DNA of 64,000 nucleotides, from the NCBI GenBank assembly GCA_037043015.1, contig CM073323.1:19806758-19870757 (forward strand). The letters are read 5' to 3'. Numbering within the stretch: the first letter of the stretch is position 1; every line of letters starts with the position of its first letter. Shown piece by piece: positions 6,888 to 59,956 of the stretch. Under the pieces are notes generated by a model. The model did no database searches. It was not told the DNA's origin and saw nothing but the letters and a program-made list of their open reading frames with translations. The position numbers and the translations under genes are program-made. The stretch is from Bryum argenteum (lineage: Eukaryota; Streptophyta; Bryopsida; Bryales; Bryaceae).

Positions 6888-8160
6888 GTGGATCACAAGA
6901 TCGAGGTGCTACCCGGAGCCGAGCCACCTTCTAAGACACCTTATCGGTTAAACCAAAAAGAGTTGATGGAGCTAAAGAAGCAACTAAACGACTTGTTGGA
7001 AAGGGGTTATGTGAGACCAAGCAAGTCACCATATGGTGCACCGGTCCTCTTTGTGGACAAGAAGGATGGCAAGCTTAGGATGTGCATTGATTATAGGGCC
7101 TTGAATAAGGTGACCATCAAGAACAACTACCCTTTGCCTCGAATTGATGATCTCTTTGATAGATTGGCGGGAGCTAAGTACTTTAGTCGCATAGACTTGA
7201 AGTCGGGTTACTACCAAATCCGCATTGCGGATGCGGATGTGGAAAAGACCGCGTGCCGCACAAGGTATGGGTCTTATGAGTTCCTTGTGATGCCCTTTGG
7301 GTTGTGCAATGCACCCTCAACATTCACAACCCTTATGAACACCATCTTTCGAGAGGAAATGGATGACTTTGTGATTGTCTACATCGATGACATCTTGGTG
7401 TTTTCCAAGACGGCCGAGGAACATGCAAGGCACCTTGAGGCAGTACTCATGAAGCTTAGAGACAACAAGCTTTATGCTAATGGGGAAAAGAGTGAGTTTG
7501 CACAACTTGAGATGGAGTTCTTGGGCCATGTGGTTACCGGAGATGGAATCAAGCCGGACATGAAGAAGGTGAAGGCAATTCAAGAGTGGAAGCGGCCTTC
7601 TACACAAAAAAGGACTTAGGTCATTCCTTGGCCTAGCAAACTACTATCGCCGCTTCATACGCAACTTTTCTAAGATTGCCAAGCCTTTGTCCGACTTGTT
7701 GAAAAAGGGGTGAACCCAAGTATGGGATGAATTTTGCTACCAAGCCTTTGAGAACTCAAGAACAAGTTGTCATCTCCACCAAAGTGTTGAAGTTCCCCGA
7801 GTTTGATAAGCCCTTTGAGGTCCACACAGATGCAAGTGACTTTGCCATTGGAGCGTCTTGATGCAAGATGGTAGGCCAATTGCCTATGAGAGCAAGAAGT
7901 TGGATGGGTGTCAAAGGAGATGGCCAACTCACGAGAAGGAGCTCTTTGCGGTGGTGCATTGTTTGAAGACATGGCAACATTACTTGGGGTTGCACAAGAC
8001 TAAGGTCTACACCGATAATGTGTCTTTGAAGTATTTTGAGACACAAGCACAAATGAGTGCCAAACAATTGAGGTGGCATGATACCTTGGCGCTCATGAAT
8101 GTGGACTTGATCCACAAACCGGGCCGTGACAATGTGGTGCCGGATGCGCTAAGTAGAAAG
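6888..8160 (+). pseudogene. Chromovirus reverse transcriptase and RNase H
   Basis: The RT domain is open from 6888 to 7619: [20 protein letters not shown], then [31 protein letters not shown] and the catalytic YIDD box at about 7378-7392. After a frame change at about 7605-7620 the thumb continues ([20 protein letters not shown]). RNase H starts near 7800 (FEVHTDASDFAIGAS), shifts frame near 7858, and continues through YESKKLDG, THEKELFAVVHCLKTWQHYL and YTDN to PDALSRK at about 8160. These enzymes copy element RNA to DNA in the particle. Catalytic residues are present but frame changes near 7615, 7710 and 7858 break the polyprotein. Confidence 0.9.
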
Positions 8161-8329
8161 GAAGAGTTTCATGCCATGAGCACCACCCAAGTCTTGCGGC
8201 TTATGTATAAGGGTGAAGGCAATTGGGAACGGCGGATAAGAGAGGGGTACATGAAGGACCCCGAGGCACAACAAATGCTTGGTGATCTTAGGAAGGGCAA
8301 GAAGCTCAAGGAGATCAAGTTGGTGAATG

Positions 8330-9130
8330 GATTGCTCAAGTATAAGCAAAGTAGGGTGTATGTTCCTCAAGGCAAGCTTAGATTGTTGGTTTTGAAGGAG
8401 GAACATGATAGTCCCATAGCCGGCCATAGGGGAGAAAAGGCTACCATTGCAACGGTGTCAAGGAGGTACTATTGGCGGGGATGAAAGATGACATAACCCA
8501 CTTTGTGAAGACTTGTGTGAAGTGCCAACTTAACCGGGCTTCATATCAAAAGCAAGCGGGCTTGTTGCAACCATTGCCAATTCCGCCGGGTCCTTGGCAT
8601 AGTGTGTCTATGGACTTCATCACAAGCCTTCCCGAGTCGCAAGGGTATGATGCCATCTTAGTGATGGTGGATCGGTTTAGCAAGTTGGCTCATATGGTGC
8701 CAACTAGAGGAATACTGGCTATCGCGCTTGAGACCGCCAAGATCTTTCTCGATGCATGGTGGAAGCATCACGGGTTGCCAAGAGTGATTGTGTCGGATCG
8801 AGACCCAAAGTTCACAAGTGCATTTTGGAGACACTTCTTTAGGAAGGTGGGAACCAAGTTGACATTTAGCACTCGCCTTTCATCCCCAAACAGATGGGCA
8901 AACCGAAAGGGTGAATGGGGTCTTGAACCAATACTTGAGGAACTTTGTGAGTGCGGACCAACGTGATTGGGTAGACTATGTGGGGTTGGCGGAGTTCGAT
9001 TACAATGCGGCCACACACTCGGCGACTAAGGAGTCACCTTTCAAAGTGGCCTATGGAGTGGAGCCACTCCAACCTCGCGACTTAGCTCTCGAGGGGCACA
9101 TTCAACACCGAGTTCAACCAAGATGGTGAA
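8330..9130 (+). pseudogene. Chromovirus integrase core, frame-disrupted
   Basis: The zinc-binding N-terminus shows HDSPIAGHRG followed by CVKCQLNR (HHCC pattern), then the catalytic core: SMDFITSLP with the first Asp, VIVSDRDPKF with the second, and the Glu region near 8900. Frames change near 8484, 8890 and 9110. Integrase joins element DNA to the chromosome in the nucleus. Confidence 0.85.
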
Positions 9131-41734: not shown

Positions 41735-42344
41735 TAGGTACCTCTACTATCATTTCCTCTTTGAAGTGAAAATACTACCAACATGAAATTTGCAATCAGA
41801 AAATCAGCAACTAGAAAGTTGTTCATCTTCATCTGAAAGACACTCTTGTACCAAAAAAATTCATCAAAAAAAAATCTTGGCTCAAATAGTAGCCTTGTAG
41901 TCGTGAAAGCTGCCAAAAATTTTACAAATGAAAGATAATCCAAAACTAGACCCCTCGCACTCAAATCCATCTTCAATACATCATCGATTGGGTCAAGCTT
42001 TCCACCACTAAAAATAGACTATAATTGGAATCCATCCCATGAAAATAGATTTTCATGAAAAAGTATTTTAGATTTCACATAATTGGCTTCCAAAGTTCCA
42101 ATGCTAAAACATGCCAAATGTTTGAAAACCCAAAAACAAAAGCTGCCTTTACTAAAATCCATGCCACTTATTAATACTTTATTTTATGAGTTTGCAATTT
42201 TTACCACACAAACTAGACTTGATTTGTGACATAACCCAAGTGATTTTGTCAAAAACGGAGGTTGGATGAAAAAGTAATGGCTATTCAAAGTTTGTGCCCT
42301 TCATCCAAAATGTTGTTTTTCGACACTAGGGACGTTTACGGGTT
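41735..42344 (-). mobile_element. 1.2-kb repeat family, inverted partial copy
   Basis: Reverse-strand match to 17073-18100. The outer end GACGTTTACGGGTT (42331-42344) corresponds to the family terminus, while the inner end is truncated after the ORF. The 80-codon ORF at 41734-41976 (MKMDLSARGLVLDYLSFVKF...) aligns with the ORF of copy 1. Confidence 0.7.
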
Positions 42345-42784
42345 CAGAATCAGTTCCAAATTTGTACCACTGTCTACTCTCAATTTAATTCTAGATTTTG
42401 TAGTATATATTGATCACTTTATTAGTTCTAAGTTGTAAATGACTTTCAGGCTATTCATGGTAAAATTAATCTTGACTTAAGAATAGATTGAAAAATATAA
42501 GTAAAAATAAAGTATAGCTATCATGATTGGCAAAAAGTTTCAAAAGTTTGAATTAGAATTGAAGTCACAAATTTGACCATTTCAATTAAAGACATGAAGG
42601 GCTTATTTGTTTCTCAACGAAGAACCTTAACAAGCATCGATAGTTGAAGTACAAGGCTTGCAAGCCTCGATAGTTGAATCAGTAGGAACTATAAAGACAT
42701 AGCTTTGCGAAGAGAAAAATCATTCATGCACTGTGTACGATCATGTTTTGAAGTTTATTGCTCTGCTTTTTGATGATTTGGTAT

Positions 42785-43762
42785 TAACCCCTAGACGTCC
42801 CTAGTGTCGAAAAACGACAATTTGGATGAAAGGCAGAAACTTTGAAGAGCCACAACTTCTTCATCCAAACTCCGTTTTTGACGAAATCACTTGGGTTATG
42901 TCACAAATCAAGTCTAGTTTATGTGGTAGGAATTTGCAAACTCATTAAATAAAGTATTAATAAGTGGCATGGATTTTAGTATAGGCAGCTTTTGTTTTTG
43001 GGTTTTCAAACATTTGGCATGTTTTACCATTGCAAGCCAATTATGTGAAATCTAAAATACTTTTTCATGAATTTTTTTTCATAGGTTTCACATTTAGATG
43101 CATCTCAACAACTTTGTAGTTGGAAAGTTTTTGATCTAGATAACTTTGGTATTGGCTTTGCAAACATGTTTCTACGATGAAAAAAGTGAAAAAATGGATG
43201 ATTTTCGAAGAGGTAGATCTCCTTCATCCACCGTTTGATTTTGACTTTATTTTTTGGGATGGATTCCAATTATAGCCTTTTTTTAGTGGTAGAAACCTTG
43301 ACCCAACCGAGGATATATTGAAGAAAAGGCATGGATTTGAGTGCGAGGGGTCTAGTTTTGGATTATTTTTCCTTTGTAAAATTCTTGGCAGTTTTTACGA
43401 CTACAAGGCTACTATTTGAGCCAAGATTTTTTTTTTTGAATTCTTTTGGTACGAAAGTGTCTTTGAGACGAAGATGAACAACTTTCTAGTTGCTGATTTT
43501 TTTATTGCAAATTTCATGTTGGTAGTATTTTCACTTCAAAGTCAAAATGATGGTATTTTGTAGCCTGTTTTGCGCACTAATATGTTATGATCTCGCAATC
43601 TATGAGGTCTCATGAGTCAAGTTTTGGTCCACATGATCTACTACAAGTCTATTACAAGTTTGTACGGTTGAGATCTGAATAGCTTATCTTTAATTTCATC
43701 TATATCACTTTTTTAGAAAATGAGTTTTTGGCTAAAAATACCCCAATGACGTTTAGGGATTA
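42785..43762 (+). mobile_element. 1.2-kb repeat family, copy 2
   Basis: TAACCCCTAGACGT to ACGTTTAGGGATTA. It matches copy 1 through its length, including the ORF region (about 43332), where T-run and indel differences break the frame. With the inverted copy 440 bp away it forms a large hairpin. Confidence 0.75.
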
Positions 43763-43929
43763 ACTACAATTAGGTTCTTTGATTCTATACCCTTAGAAAA
43801 TTGTGTAACTTCACTAAAACTAAACTAGGACTTTTAAGGTCAAAGAACCAACTTGGCATTGACACAGAAGAATCCCAAGGATTAAGATAGCAATCTCAAA
43901 TTAACCTAACCTTCGGAGCCTAATCAACC

Positions 43930-44222
43930 ATTCTATTGAGGCTCATTATTATTTTGAGGCTTATTATTATTTTGTAGGCTCATTGAGGTTCATTATTATT
44001 TTGAGGCTCATTAATATTTTGTAGCTCAATTTCGTGGCTCATTTTCTAGGCGGCCGCTTAGAAAAACCTAGAGGGGCAAACCATCAGACGAACTGCGTAA
44101 TATAAATGTCATTGTGTATTAAGACAGTAGCTCTGTAATATCACTTAAACTCCATGATATCACATAAATTCCGTAATAGCACATATACTCTGTAATATCA
44201 CACAAATTCTATAATATCACAC
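43930..44222. repeat. Short tandem repeats at composition boundary
   Basis: Units of GAGGCTCATTATTATTTT recur at 43940-44040, and a 22-24-bp unit around TCTGTAATATCACA recurs about six times at 44090-44222. They mark the change from AT-rich to GC-rich DNA. Confidence 0.7.
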
Positions 44223-44749
44223 CGATTTATAGATGGCAAAAAACAAATACATTTGGTAAGAAATGGTGATGAGTGGTAATAAGTGGGAAATGAAGTCGGT
44301 GTAATCATGGAAAAATCAGATCTTGTGTGAAGGAATGACCGGTCACGATGCAACATGATGAAAAATCATCATGACCAATTAGTTAATGTCTTGCGGGCAC
44401 GTGGCCGCCGTCAAAGGCCTTTTTTTTTTTTTTCGCCGGGCAAGCGAATGACTTCAGCCGACTCTGCCGACTGCTCACGTCATTCTCTGCTTTTGTTCTT
44501 CCTCCTTCTCTCTCCGCTGCCGCCGTCCTCGTGCACGGAGCTCTCACTCTCCCTTTTCGAGCTTGCTTTTCGAGGCTTATTTCTGCTTTTGTGCATAGGC
44601 TACGTGTGTGAAGTTTCTACGTTTCTGCTGTTTCGGCGTAGTGTGGGTTTCTTCTGCTGTTTCTACGTAGTGTGTAGATTTTTGTGGACCTCAGTTCGAT
44701 AGTTTTGTAGTTTTTTTTTCCGCGTAGTGTGTAGTTTTTTTCGACCTCA

Positions 44750-44930
44750 TTTGGACAGCGCCGCGGACCGAGGAAGTAGGCGCGGCGGACCACACCTTCA
44801 CAGCGCGGCGGAGCTCACTGCGAGAGGTCGGCGGACCTCACCTTCAAGGCGCGGCGGACCTCCGAACCAGAGCGCGGCGGACTTCACCTTCACAGCTCGC
44901 GGACCTCACTTCTAGAGCGCGGCGGACGTG
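44750..44930. repeat. GC-rich 30-bp repeats, possible promoter or 5' leader
   Basis: About six diverged units built on GCGCGGCGGACCTCACCTTC. They follow a T-rich, CT-rich stretch (44420-44580) and precede the first splice-like sites of the GC-rich block. A promoter or 5' leader role is a guess. Confidence 0.5.
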
Positions 44931-45149
44931 AGCAGGAGGTTTCGGAGCTTTTTTTGGCGATCGAGGTTTCGGGGTTTTTTTCTCGGCAGCACGTCTATCG
45001 GAGTGACTGCTTTTTCGCGGACCGATCGACTGTGCTGCCGCTTTTCATCGTGTCCATCGACCTCCAATTCCAGGTACATGTTCTCAGCGCATTAGGTGAG
45101 GTGTTTTTGTGTGTGAGTGTGTGTTTGATTACTTAGTTTGATTATTCTT

Positions 45150-45300
45150 GAATTGTTTCGATTTGCCTTTGGTGCATTGTTTCGATTTGCTCTGCTGCAT
45201 TGTTTCGATTAGCCTCTACAGCTGCGATTTTTCCATTAGCCTCTGCAGTTGCGTTTTTTCGGTTAGCCTCAGTCTGCAGCTGCGTTTTTTCAATTAGTTC
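45150..45300. repeat. About 28-bp diverged tandem repeats
   Basis: Units of GCATTGTTTCGATTTGCTCT type, later GCAGCTGCGTTTTTTC, recur five or six times. The rest of 44223-46329 shows no clear coding sequence; palindrome copies at 45694, 45896 and 46103 suggest 5' introns. Confidence 0.6.
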
Positions 45301-46329
45301 GATTATTTGGAAGCATTCAATCTTTGCATGTAATTATGCGTTGGTAGACTTCCGTAAAGAATTTTCTATCGTTGAGAGTCATTGAGACTTGTTTCATTTT
45401 CTCATGAGGCACTGCAGTGTAGGAATGGGATTGGAATTGCGGATGATCTGAGAGTGTGTACACTGATAAGCTTGGCAATGAATTCCGTGTAAGTGGTTTA
45501 GTTGCTGCTCATGCTCATTCTTTTAAATCATCAATCAAATGTACCGTATGGCCACCGTATGTGGAACCGTAAAACGAAATAAATTAAAATTGATAGATAT
45601 AAGGATGACTAACGCAGTTCTGAACGGGCGTTGAGAAAACTCTAAGTAATCGAACCATAGATGACAAATGTGTAACCCAGACATTTGTGAGATTTCTGGG
45701 CGGCCGCGCAAAAGCCACCAATGGAAGAACAAAACAGAAGAATCGAATCACTTTATAAGAAACCAAGGTATGGTTTCTAAGCGACTGCTCAGATTCGAGG
45801 GCACGATGATGACATCTAGAAAACGGTAGACCGAGAACGAAAACAGTATTCAGAGGTCGTGAATTGAGATTACTTAACGTCAATATTGGAGCGGATTTCT
45901 GAGCGACCCCTCAGAAATGTTTGTATGCTTAAAGGTCCAAAATCGAGTAGGCAGCGATGTCAACGCTGGTAAGATAGAAGAGGTCGGACTCTATTAGGTC
46001 ATCAATGTATTCCTGTCTCTTAATCCAATATTCTCCGTAAAAGATGAATGCAGCATCGAGAGCTCGTGACGTGGGGTCCGAAGTCGTCTATGTCCATTTC
46101 GATTTCTGAGCGACCGTTCAGATTTATTAACAGAATCTAAGCAGTTGAATCCAGTAGCCTGCGCTGATAGCACCGATTGCTTAGAATCTGTCTGTCTCAG
46201 GTACGTCTGCTGAGTAGTGCCGATCAACCAGATTTGTCGATGCTAAGAGGTAGATAAGAATTTGCACAGTCGCTTAGAAAAATTACCTTGTAGATCACAA
46301 TCTAAGTCACGTCCCAATTCGGTACGTAG

Positions 46330-46992
46330 ATGGAGTTCAATGAATCACTCCCACCACTCGTGGGATATCTCGAACGAGATGATACAGCGATGGAAATGTG
46401 GTATCAGATAATAGATCAAACGATTCCTTTGCGGCTCAAATCCAAGAATGCAAGCTGGTCACTTCGTATTCGTAGTGAGGAAGATGGGGCAGACCCGACC
46501 TTCAGTCTCGTTCTAGGCTTTCGATCGCAGAAAACGACATCGTATAAACCTCTGGACATGATCAAGGTCATCGATATTCATGTCAAGGGAGACCATGTCT
46601 TCTTGGACGTCGTAAACACCGAAGCAGACTATGCCTGGGGGTGCGTCGTAATGCGCCCAGAGGACGGCACTGTGTTTGACGCAACCTGGATGACGACGAC
46701 CGGGAAGGATCTCGAGTGGCCATCCTCTCTTGTAACTGAATCCTTTGTTGAATCCAAGCTCAAATTATTTCGAGGCAACAACCTCGACATGTGTCGTGAC
46801 CTTGCAGATTTTGTGAGGAAAGGATACTCGGTTCGTGCAAGAGGATTGGACGAGACTCACGACAGGATCGAGAAGGAAAGGCAGATCTATCCATGGCGAC
46901 GGATCAAGCTGAGGGGAGCACGGATCAGAGTTCCAAGTTGCAGAAAGGTTCAGTTCCAAATTACAGTCGGGTTTGCATTGTTGCATGTTTGA
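46330..46992 (+). CDS. Hypothetical protein ORF, 220 codons
   Basis: Begins ATG at 46330 (MEFNESLPPLVGYLERDD) and runs to TGA at 46990-46992. Composition and codon use look coding: mixed charged and hydrophobic residues, few low-complexity runs, with beta-rich patterns (VKGDHVFLDVV, WGCVVMRPEDG). No domain is recognised. Its last 100 bases overlap, in another frame, the first exon of the ParB/methylase gene (ATG at 46893), so either two transcripts overlap or a one-base shift near 46880 has separated the N-terminus of a single protein. A palindrome copy lies just past the stop. Confidence 0.5.
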   Translation: MEFNESLPPLVGYLERDDTAMEMWYQIIDQTIPLRLKSKNASWSLRIRSEEDGADPTFSLVLGFRSQKTTSYKPLDMIKVIDIHVKGDHVFLDVVNTEADYAWGCVVMRPEDGTVFDATWMTTTGKDLEWPSSLVTESFVESKLKLFRGNNLDMCRDLADFVRKGYSVRARGLDETHDRIEKERQIYPWRRIKLRGARIRVPSCRKVQFQITVGFALLHV

Positions 46993-49900
46993 ATTTTCTT
47001 GGGCGGTCGCTCAGGAACGATAGGCGAGCAAGAGCCGACGCAATCAATGTCAGTAGATTAGTTGTAAATCCTCTTTCACATATGTATTTGGGCGGCCGTT
47101 TAGATTCTAATGCAATTTTGTGTCGACTTTATCGTTCGTGCAGGTAAGGCGCACAAGGAGCTCGACGTATCTGGGACGACAGTGCGAGGCACGGTGCCTG
47201 GATCGATGAAACCTAATGGTGAGGGAACGATTTCCACTTATATTGGGCTATATCAATATAATAACGTATTAAGTGTTTTTTGGGCTGCCGTCGAGAAACT
47301 AATACTACCTGCAGGTCCCGATCCTGACCAGCATCATTCCACCAAGCCAGCCAGTGCGCCGGGTGCAAGGCAAGGTAAAGGTGCGTGTTTCAGATTGCAG
47401 TGATTAGGTTCCAAACTACTCTGTATTTTGCGCGGTCGTTCAGAATCTGATGTACACTCATTTTAACTTCATGTTGTGTACAGGGAAAGCGACGAAGCCA
47501 TCTGCCGAGGACGATCGGTCCCCGGCATCCAAAGCGACGATGACGATCGCAGAGAAATGTAATTCAGTTCCCTTCATCTTGTACGTCACCAGTATATCGC
47601 CTTGCTCTTGTAATGAGGACTTCTGGGCGGCCGCTGAGAAAGTATTGCATTGTATTGTGAAGCTTCTCGACCTCTAGCCAGGGACAAAGCACGATCAGCG
47701 ACTGAACAGAGTCGTGATTCAGGCAAGGCAAAATCAAGTCGTTCCGACGGGATGAGTGCGAAGGTGGCGTCGACGCAAGGATTGGAAACCGAAGGCAGGC
47801 GTGCAAGCGGCAGATCCATTCTCCCAGGCGGGACCGCAATCGATCCTTCAACATCCGGGTTCGAGCGATCGACTGCGGTGCAGGAATTCGTCAACGCCGA
47901 ACCAGAGGAGGAAGAGGAGGACGAAATGGAGCTAATTAGCCGAGGTCCTCCAGGGCAGAGCGCTTCGCCAACCGCGAACACGTCTACCGAGTTGCGGAGG
48001 ACAAGACCAAAAGAGCGCGCGATCAAGTCCAAGCTGGCCGCGCAGAAGAAGAAGAGAAAGGCAACCTAGCAAGATGTTGGGCAATCTAGTCCCGAGATGC
48101 ATCAGTCGGAAGGGGGGACGGGTGCTCCAAGTAGTCGTGAGGCATCATCCGAGACTGAAGGGGCTACGAGCCCTGACAAGAATACTGCCTCGAATGGAGC
48201 TGGTGGAATTCCAGTAGGGCTGACAGCAAGTGTCGATGAAGCCACGGCCTTCGAGAATGCTGTTAAGAAGGTAACCCTGAAGGCTTACCTTCGGGGGGGG
48301 GGGGACATGGAGCGAGTACCCGGAGACGTTGCCTTTCGATCCTGAGTCGGTCCCACAGAAGCTTGCTGTAAAGCCAAAGACAAGCAAGCAAGCGAAGAAG
48401 GGGACCATAGAGCAAATGTACGAGGACCTCAAGGCTCATGTGGAGGCAAACCTGGCGTTCAAGAAGAACGCCGAGTATATGTACATCTTCGGACAGCAGC
48501 GGTACTTCCAGCTCGGCGTAGAGGACATGACGAGTTCCGATCCATCGACGGGTACAATCTACAGGGCGTTGGAAGAAGCAGGCGTGGCGAAAGTCCTGAA
48601 GCATATGACGGATTATGGCTTCATCAAGCAGATCCTGACGGTGATGCCGAACACAAAGACGAGGCCGAAGAACTGGATGGAATGTGTGAGAGCGGGAGAG
48701 TTCTTGATCATCAACGGCCAGCATACCTGGGCTGCCGCGAAGAGGATCGTCGATGGGAAGGTGCCGAACATCCCCTCAGATATCAAGGCATGCGTGTCGT
48801 TGTGGACGTGCCAGATTGTGTGGTCGGATATACCCGCCCACTTGCACTCGCTGTCGTACAAATGAAACGACGGCAACGACGAGCAGCCGTATCTTACGTC
48901 TGCACCAGCGACTGTGGCTCACCTCCGCGAGATATGGTCCTTTCACGGCCGCCCAAAGGCATGCCGGAAGAATGGTCGTCTCAAAGAAGGATCGGAGGAG
49001 GAGAAGATTGCAAAGCAGTACAAGGTAAGAATTCGAAACCGATTTCTTGTCGTACGCTGTCGACTTTCTGGGCGGTTGCTCAGAAACTTCAGAAAGTTCT
49101 TGGGCGGCCGCTCAGAATTAGAGTCCAGGAGCGCTTTGTGACGTCGCGATACGGTGGATATGGGGCTGCTGTACATTCTGACCACGACATTGTGGTTCTG
49201 CGCAGCTCTTCAAGGAACAGGCAATCGAGACTCTGCAGTCGACTGCAGTCGCAAAGAGCAAGAGTGGGGAGAAGGTGAATTTTAGCAGAATCAACAGCCT
49301 CGGCGATATCAGACTCGTCATGTTGAACGAAGGGGCGTACACGAAGTGGGCACAGATCTTCAAGAAGTATCAAAATCTGGAGCTCATCGACCCCGACAGC
49401 AAGAGGATGCTGAAGCACATGGTGGACGAGAAGGATAGGCCATACAAGTTCCCGTACCTTGTGATCTCGTCCTCTTTCTTGAGATCGCTCGTTGGTCTCC
49501 ACGATTCCGAGTTGGAACTTCTCGCGGATCACATACTAGCTGCGGATCCGAAGGTGTACCTCGGAATAAAGAAGCCGCAGTACCCAAAGAAGTGGACGCG
49601 CGCCCAGAAAATGGCGACCTGGGTGACGAGGAAGAAGTACAAGGTGAAGATCATCAGGATCATCATGGCCACCGTGATGAAGAACAAGAAGTCGAAGGTG
49701 TCGCAGGAGATCAAGAAGGGCGACTACCCCCCGAGTTACTGGAAGTTGGCGAAGAAGTGCCTGAGGATCAGCACGTTTCACGTCGACCATGCCATGTTCG
49801 TCGCGGGACTGCCTTGGCTGAAATCTCAAGTGACGCACGGGAAGGCGAATCTGCCACTGTCCCCCGATGCGAAGGCGGTGCTACAGAGGATGGTGGACAA

Positions 49901-51277
49901 CCGCACGCGCCACAAAACGTGCATGTCCGTTGCGGACCACAGGTTCCGAGTGTACAGGCCGACAACGGCCGAACTGACGGGGCACTTCATATGGCGGAAG
50001 AACAAGATGTTCATGTACAAGAAAGGGCCGGCGTTGTGTGAGTGGGCAGAGGTTGGAATAATTGACTTCCGAACCTTCCTTCCGTTGGCGGACGATGCAA
50101 CGCCAGTCCTAACGGCGGAGACATATATGTATCTCCTCGGCCTAGTACTGGATGGGAATATCAGCAGCGTCGCGACGTTCATGATCACTTATTCGCATCG
50201 TATGGAGAGTGTGGTGCTGGAGAGTCTAAAGAATAACTTCCAGGGACACTCGTTGTCGACCACGGTGGTCTACACGCCCGGCAAAGGCGAGCCCGAGAAC
50301 GTTCTGAAGGACGACATCCGCATCCTTTACATCCAGACTAAAAGCAGGATCGTCAGTTCCTGCAAGGACGTAATGGATGTAGAGAACATTGTGCGTCCGC
50401 CGGAGTTGAATGAGGAGGGTGAATTGACACCCTCAGATGCTTCGGCGGAGACTGTCAAGACGTATCGCCTGGATCAACGCCATCACATCGCGAAGTGCGA
50501 ACTGAGAATGGAGCTATACATGAGGTTCATCGACAGGTACTGCAGACAGAGCGGGACGGTACTGCTTTTCTTCTGCGGCATGAAGGCGTTGTTGGCATGC
50601 GTTGTAAGTACTGGATTCCATCGATTTTATGTAGGTCATACGTTGCGCTAATTTATTTCATCAATGTTTCTGGGCGGTCGCTCAGAAACTCTCTGGCATC
50701 TCCGACCTCGAAGTGGTCAGATCGATTTTCGGGTGTGGTCATTTGTCATGTGGTGCCTCTCGTTCTTTTTGGGCGGCCGCTGAGAAACAAATTATTGAAG
50801 GCGAATGCTTGCTCGTTTGTGATGCAGATGCTTTGCAGGAGTAGCGTCTCGTGCATAGATGGGTCTCAGAAGTTCATGCAGTACCACCAAACAGTCTCTA
50901 CGAAGGCGTGCAGTTACTGGCCGGATGTTGTCATCCCCCAGGGCTTGAACTTCTCATGGCAGGAGATATTGAATTCAAAGGCTATGACTCGAGAGCAGAC
51001 CGATCATGACCGGTACATGAAAAGCTCCTGGGCCATGCATGACTTCTACAAGGGGGAGCTATTGGAGGACAGCGACGACGAGGCGCCTCCTGGCGGATAT
51101 GTGGTCGTCGGCGCGGGGTCAATCGTCGAGGAGCCCGTAAACAGTGCTGTGGAATGTGCCGAATCAGACTCGGACTTCACAGTACCAGAGCGAGGAGCTT
51201 CGTCTTCCCGGTCTAGGAAGCGCATAAAGTCCGCCATCTCGGTCCCGACTTCGTGCGACGACGACTTCCACATTTAG
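46893..51277 (+). CDS. Spliced gene with ParB-like segment and DNA-methylase-like motif
   Basis: Exons 46893-46934, 47144-47218, 47315-47374, 47484-47558, 47678-48270, 48359-49024, 49206-50603 and 50828-51277 join with consistent phases. The N-terminus is basic and acidic low complexity (AEPEEEEEDEMEL; KSKLAAQKKKRKAT). The segment EFLIINGQHTWAAAKRI (about 48700-48750) resembles the ParB/sulfiredoxin-type GxHR box with Thr for Arg. Near the C-terminus GTVLLFFCGMKALLACV then MLCRSSVSCIDGSQKF recalls methylase motif I (VLDPFxGxGTT, then E/D after a strand). ParB-like plus methylase fusions are known in phages and mobile elements; function here is inference. TAG at 48067-48069 and TGA at 48863-48865 interrupt the frame, so the gene is broken or split. 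If intron 48271-48358 is not real, a 12-G run (48293) shifts the frame. Confidence 0.55.
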
Positions 51278-51415
51278 GGTGTCGGCAACAGATGGAACGG
51301 TGTTTTCTCTCCAAGATCATGTCGGGAGTCAGACGCTTGTCCGTCCGCACGAAGCGAAGGGATTTCGGAAGTGGATCGCGGCAATGAAGGTGACGACGAT
51401 GACGATCTTTAAGTT

Positions 51416-53149
51416 ATGGAGGTGGACGCCGGTCAGTCCCAGGCACCTCTGGAGGACATCTCACCTGCGACCGATGCGGTAATGGACGACATCGCCGACA
51501 TCTCGACCGCTCCGGATGACCACTGCGCCGGGACGTTTCTGAGCGGCCGCTCACAAAGGTCCATCTCCCCAGTAGCTTCGGCACGTCCATCCGGTGGATC
51601 GGGACCTCCTGCTTCTGTGCGTCCGGTTCATCCAGTAGTCCTCGGCTGTAGTACACCATCCAGTTCGTCTGCTTCGAGGGCACCCACCGCAAGCGCGTTC
51701 CAGCCGGCGGAATCGCCCACTTCAATGGCACCCTCTTCGCAGTCGGTCGACCTCCAGGGAGCCCCTGAGACTCTTCCTCCGTTGAATGGGCTTGCCCCAG
51801 AATTGAGAGAATTAGTCGAGTCGCTGACTCAACGACTCAAGACTGCCGAAGCCATGGCCGCGCACAACGCACAGGAAGCGGAGAGGGCAAATAAGATGTA
51901 CATGTCGGGGAGCGGTATCTCAACGTCGTCTCAAGTGATCAATCTCGATGACGAAGACGACGAGGAGGTGGAGTCCAGATACAATATGATGGTGAAGTTC
52001 AATGAGGAGAACGACCGAAAAGTGCGGGAGGATCTGGCTAATATTCTCCCCGACAGGGCTGCGCCGAAGGATGTGCGGACTGGTGGGGATAGCAAGGATG
52101 AGAAGCCCGACATAAAGCCGACAATAGACTTGATTGCGGCGCAAGTTAAGTCACTTCGCAAGGGTGACATGATGAAGCTCAGGGACATGGCCACCAGCAT
52201 GAACATGATGAAGAAGAATCAGCAGGAGATGCAGTCAATGATGCAGTCGCTTGTGGAGATGCAGATGCTTCGGGGGCAGGCCCCATACGCCTACCACCCA
52301 GGCCCTTACCCCCAGTACGCTTATCATCCGGGGGCGTATCCGGGTGCCTTGGGCTTGCAGCCCCCGCATCCGACGTACTCAAGTCAGTCAGGCATGCACC
52401 TCCGCCTCCGGTGTTTCCTGGGTAATCGGCCATGCACCCTCTGCCCCCGCTGTTCCAGAATTTGACGGCCATGCACCCTCCCGCCCCGGTGCTTCCAGAT
52501 GCGACAGCCATGTACCCTCCGCACCATCCCTATCAGCAACCTGCGGCCATGCACCCTCCGGCGTCGGTGCTCCCAGAGGCGTCGGCCTTGTACTCTCCGC
52601 GACCTCCCTATCAGCTACCTGTGGCCTTGTACCCCCCGCCCCCCTGGATACCAGACTGTATGCCTCCACCGCCCCCCTTTGCAGCCAGATTCCGCGGGAG
52701 CGCAGGCGATGGTCGGCCCCATCTCAAACGTCGCCGCACCTGAGGAACCGCAGATCGCTGCTCCCTCAGATATCCCGACGTCCGACCAATTGACGGCCCA
52801 TCATGCCTGCAGCACTCCTATACCTTCTCCGCCGGTTCTGCCCGCCGACTCGAGCACACCCGTGGGTCCAGAATCTGAGCGGCCGCCCAAAACCGAGCCC
52901 GTGACGGCATCCGTCCCGACAGCAGAGCCGGATGTTCATACGGTCGACCAAGCCGTGGCGGATCCCGGTGCCGACACAGTCGCCCTCGAGTCTACAGCTC
53001 CCGCCACAGTGAGTCTTCCGCCAGACTCGAACCCAGATGATCTCCAGCTCAACCAATATGATCTACTGCTCGATGATGAGAAGGTGACCATTCCCCGTCC
53101 TGATGAGGAAAAGCCTTTCCGTTTAGAAGTCATATTGCGAATCGGTTGA
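51416..53149 (+). pseudogene. Coiled-coil, proline-rich ORF with SUMO-interacting-like motif
   Basis: The first ORF (51416-52465) follows the previous gene in the same frame after TAG (51275) and TAA (51411). It holds a Ser/Pro-rich region, a coiled-coil segment (ELRELVESLTQRLKTAEAMA), VINLDDEDDEE, which fits the hydrophobic-acidic pattern of SUMO-interacting motifs, and Met/Lys-rich helices (MKLRDMATSMNMMKKNQQEM). From about 52400 the frame changes into Pro-rich repeats (AMHPPAPVLP, AMYPPHHPY, AMHPPASVLP), then changes again near 52690 to end at TGA 53147-53149. It may have been the C-terminal part of the ParB/methylase protein. Two palindrome copies sit inside it. Confidence 0.4.
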
Positions 53150-54255
53150 CCATGGTTTTCTGATGTGGGGGCTCTTCTTGTGTCACTTGCAGGCGAACAC
53201 TACGACAGAGCCCGTGGAGTTAGTCGTAGTCAACAGGAATGATTTGGTGGGTTCCCAACCACATTAGTGTGGCACCCTGTCCGGAGAAAATGGGAGTACA
53301 TCCGAAGGATGGACACGCCCCTCTTTACCTTGGGCTTGTCGGATCCATTTTGTAAATTTTTGATCGAGGTATATAAAATAATTTCAAAATCTGCCTTCGT
53401 CTGGTCTGTCGTCGTCCTTGCTTTCTGCAACTCAGTTTCCAATTTCACTTTGGTGGGGTTTCCTTCCTTCAGGGCGTGGATGTGAATAAGGGGATAGCGT
53501 CTTGTAATGCACAACGGCTAGGCACCGAGGTCCGCCAGGTAGCACCGGCAACTACGTTAGAATTTCTGTGGAAAGGTATACCGGGAGTCTCACTTGTAAA
53601 CAATTCGCCGGTCGAGGACCCGCCTGCGCTTTTCCCGTCTGCGCATCAGTGCCCGAAGGTGAGGCCTCTATTTGAGCATTGAATTTTATTTTTCAATTAC
53701 GGTGTCTAGTCTTCTATATGATGGAGTGTAGTCACTCCGAATGCATGCCCCTCCAGCCTCTACCTCCGTCATTTCTAGTCGGCCGATCAGATCAGTCCAA
53801 GGGCTGTAGGCATCTAAGCGATCGTCCAGATGCTAGCGATGCCTCCCCGCATCGGCTCTGTGGCCATCCATGCGGATGACCACTGCGCCGGGACCATTCT
53901 GAGCGGCCGCGCAGAAACGTCCATCTCCCTCACTGGCTTCGGTACGTTGTCCTAATGCATCCGTTGAGGCTCGATAGATTAGGTTGGTCGATCAGGAATA
54001 TGATGATCGCATTTCAACTTAACCCTCCTGATATTCTGGAGCCCTCACGTTGCAGGACTCACACTCATGAAATATTGACCTCCACATATATTTCACGATG
54101 GTCATTGTGCCTTCCTATTTCCGGACTGCCGTGTCGGATTCATAAGTCACACCTGCTGGCTTTGTCCGACATGTCTGATTTGTCATTACAATCATTCATT
54201 GTGTTTCGCATTCGAACATGTTGTTCCTCTGTTCACACGACGAGAGTATTGGCAG
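53150..54255. other. Non-coding or intronic stretch with duplicated palindrome segment
   Basis: No confident exon. About 65 bp at 53873-53940 duplicate 51512-51580 of the preceding ORF, including a palindrome copy (shared GATGACCACTGCGCCGGGAC). A second palindrome copy lies at 53772. Confidence 0.6.
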
Positions 54256-55225
54256 GTCTTGTACTCGCCTTACCCAGTACTCGGGGCCCAGGCCATGAAG
54301 TACTGCGTCATTCTGGAGCTGGACGGTGTCCTGGGCCGGATCGAACATGACAAAAGCTGCATCCGGCAACCGCCCAAGGACTGCGTTCAGCCATCCGGCT
54401 GCGACTCTGGCAGTTACAGTCCCCAGACTCGGACGTTCTTCCAGGACTACGTCCTGAGCTGTCGACCGGGCGTGCGAGAATTTCTTAAGTTCGTCACTAG
54501 CGTGTGTCATGTCACGGTCTGGACTAGGTTACCAAAGTCTGTCACGACGGAAATGGTTCAGTTCATGTTTCGGGGACTGCCCCAGCCGAGGGAGATCTTG
54601 TCTATAGAGGACTGCATTGTGATCATCGAGTCGTGGCCGCAGTCAGAGCGACCCTGTCCGGTTCTCAACTGCCACCTCCTGTCCCATCCTTGCCCCGGTC
54701 ACCCCGTTAGCACCCGACCGAACTTAACCGCAGATCGAACTTTCGTCCGTCGCCGACCACCCGGAAGGTAAGCTCCGCCTGAAGGTGCTCCACAAGACGG
54801 TGTGGGGGCAGCCCAGGTTCTCCACCCGTTTCATAACTCTCAACGCGTCCAACACACTGCTCGTGGATTCCAGCCCTAAGTCCGCCATATTGAATCCCCG
54901 TTAAAGCGCAATATTTCCAACCTTCTATGACGGCAATCACACCGACATAGTGCTCCGGATGTCGGTAGCACCATTGATCAAACACATCGTGAAGATGAAT
55001 CTCAGTGTTTCGAAGTATGTGAAGGCGGTCGATTTCGCGGGGCAACGGCCTCACCGTTTGCCTCGAGCCATCGGCCTTGAATCCAGGGTCAAGATTTGTG
55101 CCAGATACATGGACCCGTCTCTTCTCATTCCCGACCCGTTATACGTTCCGTCGAAGCACTATCAGACAGGGGACGACTATTTTACTCGCCGTAGGGTTGC
55201 AAGTAAGTTGATGCCACGTATCTAA
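54256..55225 (+). pseudogene. FCP1/NIF-type CTD phosphatase-like gene, broken
   Basis: The first exon starts at 54256 after TTGGCAG and encodes KYCVILELDGVLG (HAD motif I), YVLSCRPGVREFLKFV and CHVTVWTRL, the order seen in FCP1/SCP phosphatases. The second exon starts at 54734 after CCGCAG and encodes KLRLKVLHKTVWGQPRF, NTLLVDSSPKSAILNP (motif III with DSSP) and, after an in-frame TAA at 54901-54903, AIFPTFYDG and further sequence to TAA 55223. Family members dephosphorylate Ser in the RNA polymerase II tail or related targets in the nucleus. Motif I should be DxDx[T/V]; here the nucleophile Asp is Glu, so even without the stop it should be inactive. The donor of exon 1 is uncertain. Confidence 0.7.
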
Positions 55226-56022
55226 TGCAGCCTGCAGCACGTGGTGGTTGTTATATTCGCTATCGAAAGTTCCGAGGCTCGCCCGTGCGGGACACGTCAA
55301 AGGGAGTCGGGTCCTGTGACTATGACGGGTCGGCTTTGGATGCACATGGAGACGTGACGTCGAAACCATTGGATGGCCCTCGCTGACAGTGAGTTTCCTA
55401 ACCCTCCCACACCTCCCCCCCCCCACTCTCCAGATTTGGTGGCCATAACTGCGGCATTGTTCTCTCTTCTGTGAATCTGACTTTTGTCTTGACCTCGTTT
55501 CTCCAGGAGATATTGGTGCGGTCGACTGCCATGGTTTCAGACGGCCGTGCAGAAGTTCGTGGGACGGGATCTTACATGAGCGAGGGAGGCCACAGAAACA
55601 CTCTGGCGTGGTGGCTGCTCGATATGGCCTGGAACTTTGTGTGGCGGCGCGCCACCCACAAGTAATCAATCGTGTACGCACGAGGTCGACCGGGCTTCTC
55701 TAGTTGCGGCCTCCGTCGTCTTCGGCGGCGACATTACTCTTCACCGTACTCGTCAGCAATAATCACTTAGAGAAAGCGATTGCTCAAACTTTTCCGAGTC
55801 ACTGGGCAGTTTACTTCTATTCATGTTGGTCAATAATGAACAGCTATGTTTGTCTAGTCCCAAACGCATTACACTGAAGTTGGACTTGATCATTTCTAAT
55901 AAATTTGGTCTCCCATCCCGTACACGAGGAGTGGATTTCTTCGCTTATTGGTCTCAATTCTGCTCGTTTTTGCTTGTATATCGCTTCTTTGCCGCCCAAT
56001 ACCCGAGTCTCGACGGTAAAAT
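55226..56022. other. Unassigned sequence downstream of the phosphatase-like gene
   Basis: A 64-codon ORF at 55471-55665 ending LAWWLLDMAWNFVWRRATHK could be a terminal exon, but no partner is identified. A C run lies at about 55416-55425. Confidence 0.35.
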
Positions 56023-56228
56023 GTTTTGAGCGGCCGCTCAGATCATGAGTCGCGTGCTCTTGCGTCAACCCTGAACTCAGACGCCGGCATTAGTCATAGT
56101 TTATGATCAACTTGGTTCAACACCGTCGTTCAGGACTTCCGTGACTTGGTTCGGGACGACCCTAAACTAACAAGGCCTCGTCGATTCAACCTTACTGACT
56201 TTCATGATTCTCGACGGTTGTTCAGATC
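56023..56228. repeat. About 205-bp direct repeat, copy 1
   Basis: Matches 56656-56860 with roughly 80 percent identity by eye. Both begin with a palindrome copy (GAGCGGCCGCTCAGATC) and end with a degenerate one (GACGGTTGTTCAGATC). Shared core words are GCGTCAACCCTGAACT and TTCCGTGACTTGGT. Confidence 0.8.
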
Positions 56229-56340
56229 CTTGGGTGCAATGGTCGATGACGTCCCTAAGCTTTAGTTGATCCAAAGCAGTCATCGTAATGCTAAACTTGG
56301 AGACCATTTCGCGCACTTAATGGTTTTGAGGATCTTTTTA

Positions 56341-56641
56341 AGGTAATGAGAGACTTTGAAGTGGAGAGTAGACTTGGGATTGTGCTTCTTCGTGCTCTTG
56401 TACTTACACCCAAAGAATTGCTGACTTCTCTATCGCGAATTTCCTCGGTCTTGAGCACTTGGATTACAGAATCAGTAGCACTGAAACATTATTCAATTCT
56501 ACTGACATTGTAATCCAAGTGCTTGGCATTGAGGGAATCCCTATAGGAAACACTGCAATTTTGTTGGGTATAGGTACTGAGCAAGAATAGGAAGAAGCAC
56601 AATCCCAAGTCTACTATCCACTTCATAATCTCTCGTTACCT
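56341..56641. mobile_element. 301-bp foldback MITE
   Basis: Long inverted arms: AGGTAATGAGAGACTTTGAA onward at the left, and reverse-complement AGGTAACGAGAGATTATGAA onward at the right. The arms share AGTAGACTTGGGATTGTGCT and inner pairs (CACTTGGATTACA / TGTAATCCAAGTG). TA flanks both sides. It sits between the two 205-bp direct repeats and has no coding capacity. Confidence 0.85.
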
Positions 56642-56655
56642 TAGACAGTCAAATG

Positions 56656-56860
56656 TTTTGAGCGGCCGATCAGATCGTGGGTCGCATGCTTCTGCGTCAA
56701 CCCTGAACTAAGACGCCGTCATGAGTACTCGTTTATGAGCAACATGGTTCTCCACCGTCGATAAGGAGTTCCGTGACTTGGTCCGGGACGATCCTAAACT
56801 ACCACGGCCTCGTAGATTCAACCTTGCTGACTTTCATGACTCTTGACGGTCGTACAGAAG
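56656..56860. repeat. About 205-bp direct repeat, copy 2
   Basis: Second copy of the 56023-56228 segment, again bounded by palindrome-family sequence at both ends. A partial third echo (CCGGGACGACCCTAAACTA) occurs at about 56876. Confidence 0.8.
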
Positions 56861-57096
56861 CTGGGGTGTTGTGGTCCGGGACGACCCTAAACTAGGGCGT
56901 GTACAGGATATCCCCCAAGCTGGGACTTACCACGCCGCTTGCGTGGATGAATGCCGTCGAAGTTCACATCCAACGGCGAAGTGTCGCTCATGTTGCAATA
57001 CCTGCCGCACAATATTTGCCGCGACCAATAGAATTTATTTTTTTGGCTGCCCAAAGTTTGAACTAGGTTAGGGTTTGAAGGAGGTGCGAGTGTAGG

Positions 57097-58797: not shown

Positions 58798-59956
58798 TTA
58801 CTCATGGAAGTAATGAGGATATCGACCGCGATAATCCTCTACTTTCTCCTCAACCTTAACCCTAGTTGATGTGGATTTCATATTCCACAAACTCTCTTCC
58901 ACATTGAGCATCTCTTGCTCATACTTCTCCCATCCAAGATTGTACCTTTCACCAAGAAAAACATTTTAAATGTTAAGTATAAATTAAACAATAAGATGCC
59001 CACATACAAAGATATAAGAAATCATTCAAACGCATATAGATTAAAAAGAACATACCAATAAAATACTTCTTGGTCTTTGTGAAACGCAAGCAATTCCTCC
59101 TTCAATAATTCGCGCCCTTGAGGAATGTGATTCTTCGAAAAGTGTTTGACCACATGCGCATATTTTGATGCTCTCGAAGTTGCGAGCTTTCGAAGGAATA
59201 CATCATTTGACTCCAATGAAGTCCATAGTTGGGAATTAATCAAACCAACCCCCCATTCACTAATTCCAAGAATTTCTATCTTCTTTGAATCAAGAAAGCT
59301 ACAAAGGAGAGGTTTAGGCAACGGCTCACGATCTTGGGCATGTTTTTCAATCTCACTCCAAGAAGACAATGCTTTTTGCCTCCATACCTCCATTTGTTGA
59401 TGGTGAATTTTTCGTAGCCGTTTCTCCACATCACCCATGATTTTGGAATTCATTTTTTTGTGGTCTTGAACTCGAATGCGATGACTTTTTCGTGGCCGCC
59501 CCGGTTCTGCTTTCTCTATGAAGAGATTGTGTTTCTTCTTCATATGACCCCGAAGATTTTTCAAATTTTTGTATTTGCAAGTGCATTCTTCATAACGACA
59601 TTCAAAGGCTTGAGAAATGCCTTCTCGGTCCTTTCGATCTTCAGGAAACCAATAATGAGTTTCAAAATCCGCAATGGGCAAACCATCCTCTACACCATAG
59701 AAGAAATAAATTACCATTTTAGAATCAAAAGGTGATAAAATCACTAATCTAAGAAATATGCATCACTACATACTTACAATATAAAAGGACATTTAAAATA
59801 ACCAAGTATTATACATTTGTAACTATGAATTGAAAGTTTTGTACCATTTGTCCTTATATTTGGAGGAAGATGCATCTGTAATCGCTCGGTATCAGATGTC
59901 TCACTCTCGGACCGTAAACTCGCATCTTCATTCTCCAAAATGATTGGCTCCAACAT
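58798..59956 (-). CDS. C2H2 zinc-finger protein with AT-hook-like motif, three exons
   Basis: Exons 59956-59845, 59689-59056 and 58945-58798 join in phase to an uninterrupted 297-residue protein (894 nt including stop TAA at 58798-58800). The start is MLEPIILENEDASLRSESE. One C2H2 finger is visible, FECRYEECTCKYKNLKNLRG followed by HMKKKH, and an AT-hook-like PGRPRK follows at once; together they suggest DNA binding in the nucleus. The rest is helical and charged (MEVWRQKALSSWSEIEKHAQ) with a C-terminal tail YRGRYPHYFHE. All splice sites are GT/AG. It lies inside a DNA transposon, so it may encode an accessory or unrecognised transposition protein, but no catalytic domain is seen. One of the two intact models in this window. 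Confidence 0.7.

Follow-up and report, generated by a model that had tools for sequence, protein, structure and literature searches.

Why should the introns of one gene, unrelated in the rest of their sequence, share the same 20-nucleotide palindrome? We met this question in a 64,000-nucleotide stretch of the Bryum argenteum genome (GCA_037043015.1, contig CM073323.1, positions 19,806,758 to 19,870,757 of the forward strand; henceforth the window), in a predicted gene that we call gene 1. A first-pass annotation had read the shared sequence as the mark of introner-like elements that create introns, or of a mobile palindrome tolerated only in introns, and had added that the motif folds into an RNA hairpin that could aid splicing. 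This interpretation is supported in part. Gene 1 belongs to a multicopy giant DNA transposon over whose noncoding DNA the palindrome is arrayed in family-specific variants. We tentatively propose that the palindrome is a cis-acting, family-specific DNA site of this transposon, putatively bound by an element-encoded protein and, by analogy with a known system, most likely used in anti-silencing.

The mobile nature of gene 1 is apparent from its copies. When exon 7 was searched against its own genome (258.8 Mb in 25 contigs), 34 matches were obtained. Those at 87–100% identity (24, of which 20, the window's own included, are near full length for the query) form family 1, and the ten at 67–71% identity form family 2. 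On contig C1, five of the eight gene-1 matches lie in long elements, picked as oriented exact pairs of 17-bp terminal inverted repeats (TIRs; AACCTCAATTCCGTTAA) around such matches and hence exact at both ends. These elements measure 28.6, 28.7 and 31.7 kb in family 2 and 51.3 and 52.3 kb in family 1. At up to one mismatch the TIR occurs 1151 + 1160 times in the genome, compared with 2 + 4 for a reversed control. It also bounds small nonautonomous derivatives, repeats of 423–435 bp, which account for four of six stretches examined around isolated palindrome sites and hold one (L051) or two palindromes (L052, L053, L055) at up to five mismatches. Besides TIRs, the elements show the fixed-length target-site duplications of TIR DNA transposons: 4-bp flanks match in four of the five long elements (TTAG, TAGG, CACT, AAGG), disagreeing in the 31.7-kb one (C1:28588170–28619895), and agree in all four small copies, a single duplicated locus accounting for two of them. 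Of the two remaining isolated-site stretches, one is a family-2 end; the other, L054 (C1:32957600–32960500), holds three palindromes, has no similarity to the elements compared and possibly represents another family. In the 28.7-kb family-2 element, of whose interior about 20 kb were read, a DUF7869 gene lies at one side, followed by gene 1 and then by a NIF-type phosphatase gene resembling the one in the window. The DUF7869 protein (E 1.4e-23 and 5e-10 in L057) is a candidate transposase, and a palindrome sits in the gap between the open frames of its gene. No TIR was found in the window at up to three mismatches, so the window copy is either partial or reaches beyond the window.

Scanned on both strands at up to three mismatches, the 20-nt palindrome TTCTGGGCGGCCGCTCAGAA gave 19 matches in the window, corresponding to 12 distinct sites, all inside 44044–56043; none of 100 shuffles gave any match at this threshold. 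A looser scan with a symmetric consensus (up to five mismatches) located 21 sites in 44000–56900, with 0.05 expected. Gene 1 has six supported introns, numbered 1, 2, 3, 4, 6 and 7, and its predicted structure is as follows.

46330–46947, plus strand: exon 1, one base shorter than in two other copies (open frame; aligned copies C1b and C5a; family-2 match in translation)
46948–47143, plus strand: intron 1, two palindromes at 46997–47016 and 47086–47105 (GT..AG, frame in C1b and C5a, motif scan)
47144–47218, plus strand: exon 2 (open in frame in three copies)
47219–47314, plus strand: intron 2, one palindrome at 47278–47297 (motif scan, copy comparison)
47315–47374, plus strand: exon 3 (copy comparison)
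47375–47483, plus strand: intron 3, one palindrome at 47426–47445 (motif scan, copy comparison)
47484–47558, plus strand: exon 4 (copy comparison)
47559–47677, plus strand: intron 4, one palindrome at 47621–47640 (motif scan, copy comparison)
47678–49024, plus strand: exon 5, with stops in the window copy and a G-run frameshift that gave rise to a false intron at 48271–48358 (family 2 reads through; G-run variable between copies)
49025–49205, plus strand: intron 6, two palindromes at 49066–49085 and 49098–49117 (same splice position in family 2)
49206–50603, plus strand: exon 7, a conserved domain of unknown function (genome matches, alignment; no Pfam match)
50604–50827, plus strand: intron 7, two palindromes at 50668–50687 and 50767–50786 (same splice position in family 2)
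50828–53149, plus strand: remainder of gene 1, interrupted by stops in the window copy, and palindromes at 51537–51556 and 52873–52892 in the open frame (family-2 open frames span the equivalent region and hold no palindrome there)

The first-pass annotation had counted 2, 1, 1, 1, 2 and 2 palindromes in these six introns. The motif scan returned the same numbers, all four copies in introns 1–3 being weak (four or five mismatches). Its start of intron 1, at 46935, lacks a GT. In C1b and C5a, which have one extra base in exon 1, the donor AAAG/GTTCAG joins exons 1–5 in one frame, with one stop in each copy downstream of this donor, and from this frame the intron was moved to 46948–47143. That introns 1–4 all split codons after the first base (phase 1) was confirmed. 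The interval 48271–48358, earlier taken for a seventh intron without a palindrome, is not an intron: family 2 continues through it in one frame (KGGRWSEYPNTLPF) and the G-run varies between copies. All six supported introns therefore carry the palindrome. Beyond these introns, two palindromes in the open frame (51537, 52873) and ten outside gene 1 had been overlooked; the latter lie in the following regions.

44044–46123, plus strand: upstream noncoding region, six palindromes starting at 44044, 45618, 45694, 45775, 45897 and 46104 (motif scan)
44082–44222, no strand given: CTCTGTAATATCACA-type repeats, also present in TIR-bounded elements, close inside their left ends
53773–53916, plus strand: two palindromes, starting at 53773 and 53897, between gene 1 and the NIF-type gene (motif scan)
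54175–55300, plus strand: NIF-type gene (C-terminal domain (CTD) phosphatase-like), limits approximate (PF03031; E 3.7e-5 for 54079–54771 and 1.4e-10 in a family-2 copy)
56024–56675, plus strand: palindromes starting at 56024 and 56656, 3′ of the NIF-type gene, in a region with direct and inverted repeats (motif scan, repeat search)

The palindromes are biased against coding sequence. At up to five mismatches, with coding limits set by us and a chance expectation of at most 0.2 sites per stretch, coding sequence holds 2 of 21 sites in the window, 0 of 36 in family-2 copy A, 0 of 30 in family-2 copy B and 0 of 13 in a part of L058, the coding fractions being 0.54, 0.48, 0.54 and 0.37, respectively. 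Introns are the densest compartment, with 8.6–9.7 sites per kb compared with 1.9–5.2 in other noncoding DNA. Tolerance in introns only is too narrow a description, the bias being directed against coding sequence and not towards introns alone. Given the window's noncoding density, the chance of at least one site in all six introns is 0.0027, a figure computed post hoc on array copies that are not independent. With up to five mismatches allowed, L023 is the single near full-length family-1 locus, of 20, that lacks a palindrome in introns 6 and 7; the other 19 have one or more there. Six family-2 loci carry 2, 5, 5, 5, 6 or 9 palindromes in intron 6, and in intron 7 five of them carry two and one carries one.

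The sites also follow the element. Contig C1 has 76 distinct sites: TIR-bounded elements contain 33, small copies 4, and another 13 are no more than 15 kb from a gene-1 match. These 50 compare with 0.7% of random positions covered by the three classes, which disfavors a freely mobile palindrome. A further 16 lie at most 30 kb from a single TIR on its inward side (4.6% coverage), which brings to 66 the sites inside or close to the element or its TIRs. Two of the ten outside all classes are the family-2 end recognized by sequence (42742802) and a site in L054 (32959001), which has no match.

Introns 6 and 7, whose splice positions are common to both families, allow a comparison across families. 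The window copy and family 2 are 50–51% identical in exon-7 protein. With palindromes and splice signals masked, the introns of family 1 and family 2 are no more similar than shuffles (p 0.34–0.85 in four comparisons), whereas 150 nt of adjoining exon score 126, the shuffles reaching at most 35; within family 2, this masked-intron test detects clear similarity. The palindrome has therefore outlived the other sequence of these introns.

Variants and arrays of the palindrome are family specific. Family-2 introns have their own symmetric form (GGGC..GCCC), spaced 63–68 bp apart in intron 6; the upstream arrays of this family are long, with a spacing of mostly 69–79 bp, and its sites between genes are irregularly spaced. 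In L045 (family-2 copy A), the weaker half-site lies on the left in the upstream array and on the right in the array between genes, and the stronger halves thus face gene 1 from both sides. Related palindromes with a CTGCAG or CTGCGG core (TTCTGAGCTGCAGTTCAGAA, TTCAGGACTGCAGTTCGGAA) occur near element ends in L058, L059 and L060 and possibly constitute a second site type. By eye, the introns of the family-1 copies L019 and L024 differ by clusters of small changes (CTCAGAA to CTCGTAA or CCGTAA) and not by scattered substitutions. P0003, a database protein, ends in a stretch readable as a compensated form of the palindrome and was used to look for a third-family motif; the back-translated 20-mer had no genome match at up to one mismatch, and this candidate is unsupported.

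Introns 1–4 are absent from some relatives. In family-2 copy B the stretch matching them is a low-complexity linker that stays open in a single long frame and lacks the palindrome, and the database proteins P0004 (675 amino acids, family-2-like) and P0005 (718 amino acids, third family) are likewise uninterrupted. Judged by sequence comparison, the introns could have been gained in family 1 or lost before families 2 and 3 separated, both being possible. Loss comes into consideration because the exon-7 proteins of families 2 and 3 share more identity with one another (57–58%) than with those of family 1 (47–56% by pair). A more far-reaching reading, which we consider unlikely, is that this gene owes the presence or retention of its introns to the DNA-binding sites that they bring into a coding region; family 1 would then have acquired four palindrome-holding introns within a linker for which two other families have a single uninterrupted exon. 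Were it true, introns in a selfish element would be under selection for their DNA content.

Our tentative explanation for the palindrome as a whole, that of an element-bound site, runs as follows. The palindrome would serve as the binding site of a protein, probably a dimer, whose gene we infer to belong to the element. Its sites would have spread and been amplified over the element's noncoding DNA, introns included, because there they do no damage to proteins, and the predicted introns would bring sites into a gene whose exons would otherwise be a long site-free stretch. Since family-specific site arrays over noncoding DNA resemble the targets of VANC proteins at VANDAL motif arrays, shielding of the element from host silencing is the likeliest use by analogy; we do not claim that the element is a member of the VANDAL/VANC family. 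The palindrome looks like a docking site that the element uses for itself rather than an intron-making machine.

Several observations weigh against this explanation. Two window palindromes lie within the open frame of gene 1 (51537, 52873), and the sites of an array are not independent, so that the binomial p values exaggerate the significance. Among the matches listed, four of nine small exact TIR pairs on C1 hold a palindrome and five do not. The pieces of gene 1 match nothing in Pfam above the curated cut-off, and none of the element proteins seen is a known binder; two AlphaFold models are of low confidence (mean predicted local distance difference test scores of 37 and 44). Finally, the CTGCAG/CTGCGG-core palindromes near some element ends favor the main rival, in which the palindromes are binding sites for a transposase or accessory protein and serve excision and integration, in the manner of subterminal CACTA or hAT sites, rather than anti-silencing. 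Of 10 element-end stretches of 0.5–1.5 kb, 3 contain such related palindromes (5 hits versus 0.03–0.08 expected), the small copies combine TIRs with one or two palindromes, and the half-sites of family-2 copy A are inverted between the upstream array and the array between genes. A role in transposition nevertheless sits poorly with sites in introns and intergenic DNA many kb from the ends, with the nonterminal array between gene 1 and the NIF-type gene, with a family-2 left end that has no main-form site in its first 3 kb (up to four mismatches), and with seven of ten end stretches that have no related palindrome. On balance we regard this rival as somewhat unlikely.

The other explanations account for less of the distribution. 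An intronic RNA hairpin that aids or regulates splicing, as first suggested for this locus, drew its appeal from the imperfect transition-type pairs of the window introns, which on the sense strand comprise 18 G-U and 1 A-C, a count inflated by common ancestry of the sites. The bias reverses in the family-2 upstream array (G-U 1, A-C 39) and comes to only 3:2 and 4:1 in the family-2 introns of two copies and to 3:2 and 3:3 at the window's other sites. Many palindromes are moreover located upstream, between genes and in small copies, and 43500–57000 has no Rfam match at gathering score, which leaves the hairpin distinctly unlikely. Arrays that expand and contract, as from two to nine copies in intron 6 of the six family-2 loci, would fit a site for a host protein or a passive tandem repeat piling up where selection permits. 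A passive repeat would hardly be the sole thing kept in introns 6 and 7 across ~50% protein identity, and most C1 palindromes lie in or near the element; we hold either version to be highly doubtful. Least probable is that each intron was made by insertion of a palindrome-carrying introner-like element. The absence of introns 1–4 from copy B, P0004 and P0005, a palindrome in each and their shared phase would suit it, but intron loss in families 2 and 3 is also possible, and in 15 intron pairs with the 20-mers masked none clearly exceeded its shuffles in similarity (lowest p 0.06). The likeness ends with the palindrome, short of the splice sites, and because the introns are unrelated outside it, an introner origin, at least a recent one, is not supported.

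Further features of the window and its relatives concern repeats and unrelated open frames. A 75-bp palindrome-holding segment is present in two copies with 88% identity (51513–51586 and 53873–53947), the first within the open frame of gene 1. The region 56012–56890 comprises a direct repeat (56012–56258 and 56644–56890) flanking a large imperfect hairpin (56339–56643), and self-inverted stretches of 298 and 566 bp also occur 3′ of the NIF-type gene in two family-2 copies. To the left of gene 1, 41745–43555 contains large inverted repeats with two pairs of ~300-bp arms (89–91% identity), and a similar foldback is found at the matching place in the copy C1b. A fragment of a long terminal repeat-type retrotransposon polyprotein lies at 6888–8484 (RVT_1 E 2.8e-38, RT_RNaseH 3.4e-22, Integrase_H2C2 7.6e-9), and an open frame at 59022–59744 has zinc-finger matches below threshold (E 0.03–0.1). 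ParB-like and methyltransferase-like parts of gene 1, suspected from motifs, were dropped, there being no Pfam match above cut-off and the models being too poor for structure search. A viral collection yielded 82 pattern matches, none of them a relative.

In the literature, the one title listed for the exact motif and TIR strings concerned a duck gene, searches for "DUF7869" and for binding sites in introns returned no paper, and among the titles listed for giant transposons none was on this element, which is accordingly a giant type not found in the searches made. Should an element protein bind the palindrome, it would become possible to test whether introns were gained or kept for the DNA sites that they carry. 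With two families that differ in half-site variants and intron sets, coevolution of protein and site is directly testable.

Among known systems, Maverick/Polinton and Starship elements are further giant eukaryotic transposons, CACTA and hAT elements have subterminal transposase-binding repeats, and VANDAL elements are Mutator-like. The present arrays share with the CACTA and hAT repeats short repeated noncoding sites that are inverted between two sides, but reach into introns and intergenic DNA remote from the ends. Teratorn, at 41–182 kb with 18-bp TIRs, and enlarged CACTA elements of 16–20 kb (PMC6431247) are likewise large and endowed with several genes; the Bryum element differs in its DUF7869 and NIF-phosphatase genes and 4-bp duplications. 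According to PMC9860276, introners are recognized by similarity reaching near both splice boundaries, and some families have TIRs and 4-bp duplications. Sequence common to several introns is the point of likeness, whereas here similarity ends at the palindrome and the introns sit in the transposon's own gene. The closest parallel is VANDAL: according to PMC5735166 and PMC10398659, VANC21 localizes to introns, intergenic and terminal noncoding regions, the VANC protein binds its motif and induces loss of methylation, and the motif arrays evolve as tandem repeats and differ between families. Family-specific motif arrays in noncoding DNA, introns included, are likewise found here, and the likeness covers a short motif confined mostly to one element family, its placement in introns, upstream and intergenic DNA, its tandem repeats and its variants per family. 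The VANDAL motif described there has nine bases (YAGTATTAY), whereas the Bryum site is a 20-bp palindrome in elements of 28.6–52.3 kb with 17-bp TIRs and 4-bp target-site duplications. If an element-encoded protein does bind it, the element would add to VANDAL a separate instance of a transposon writing its own recognition code over its noncoding DNA.

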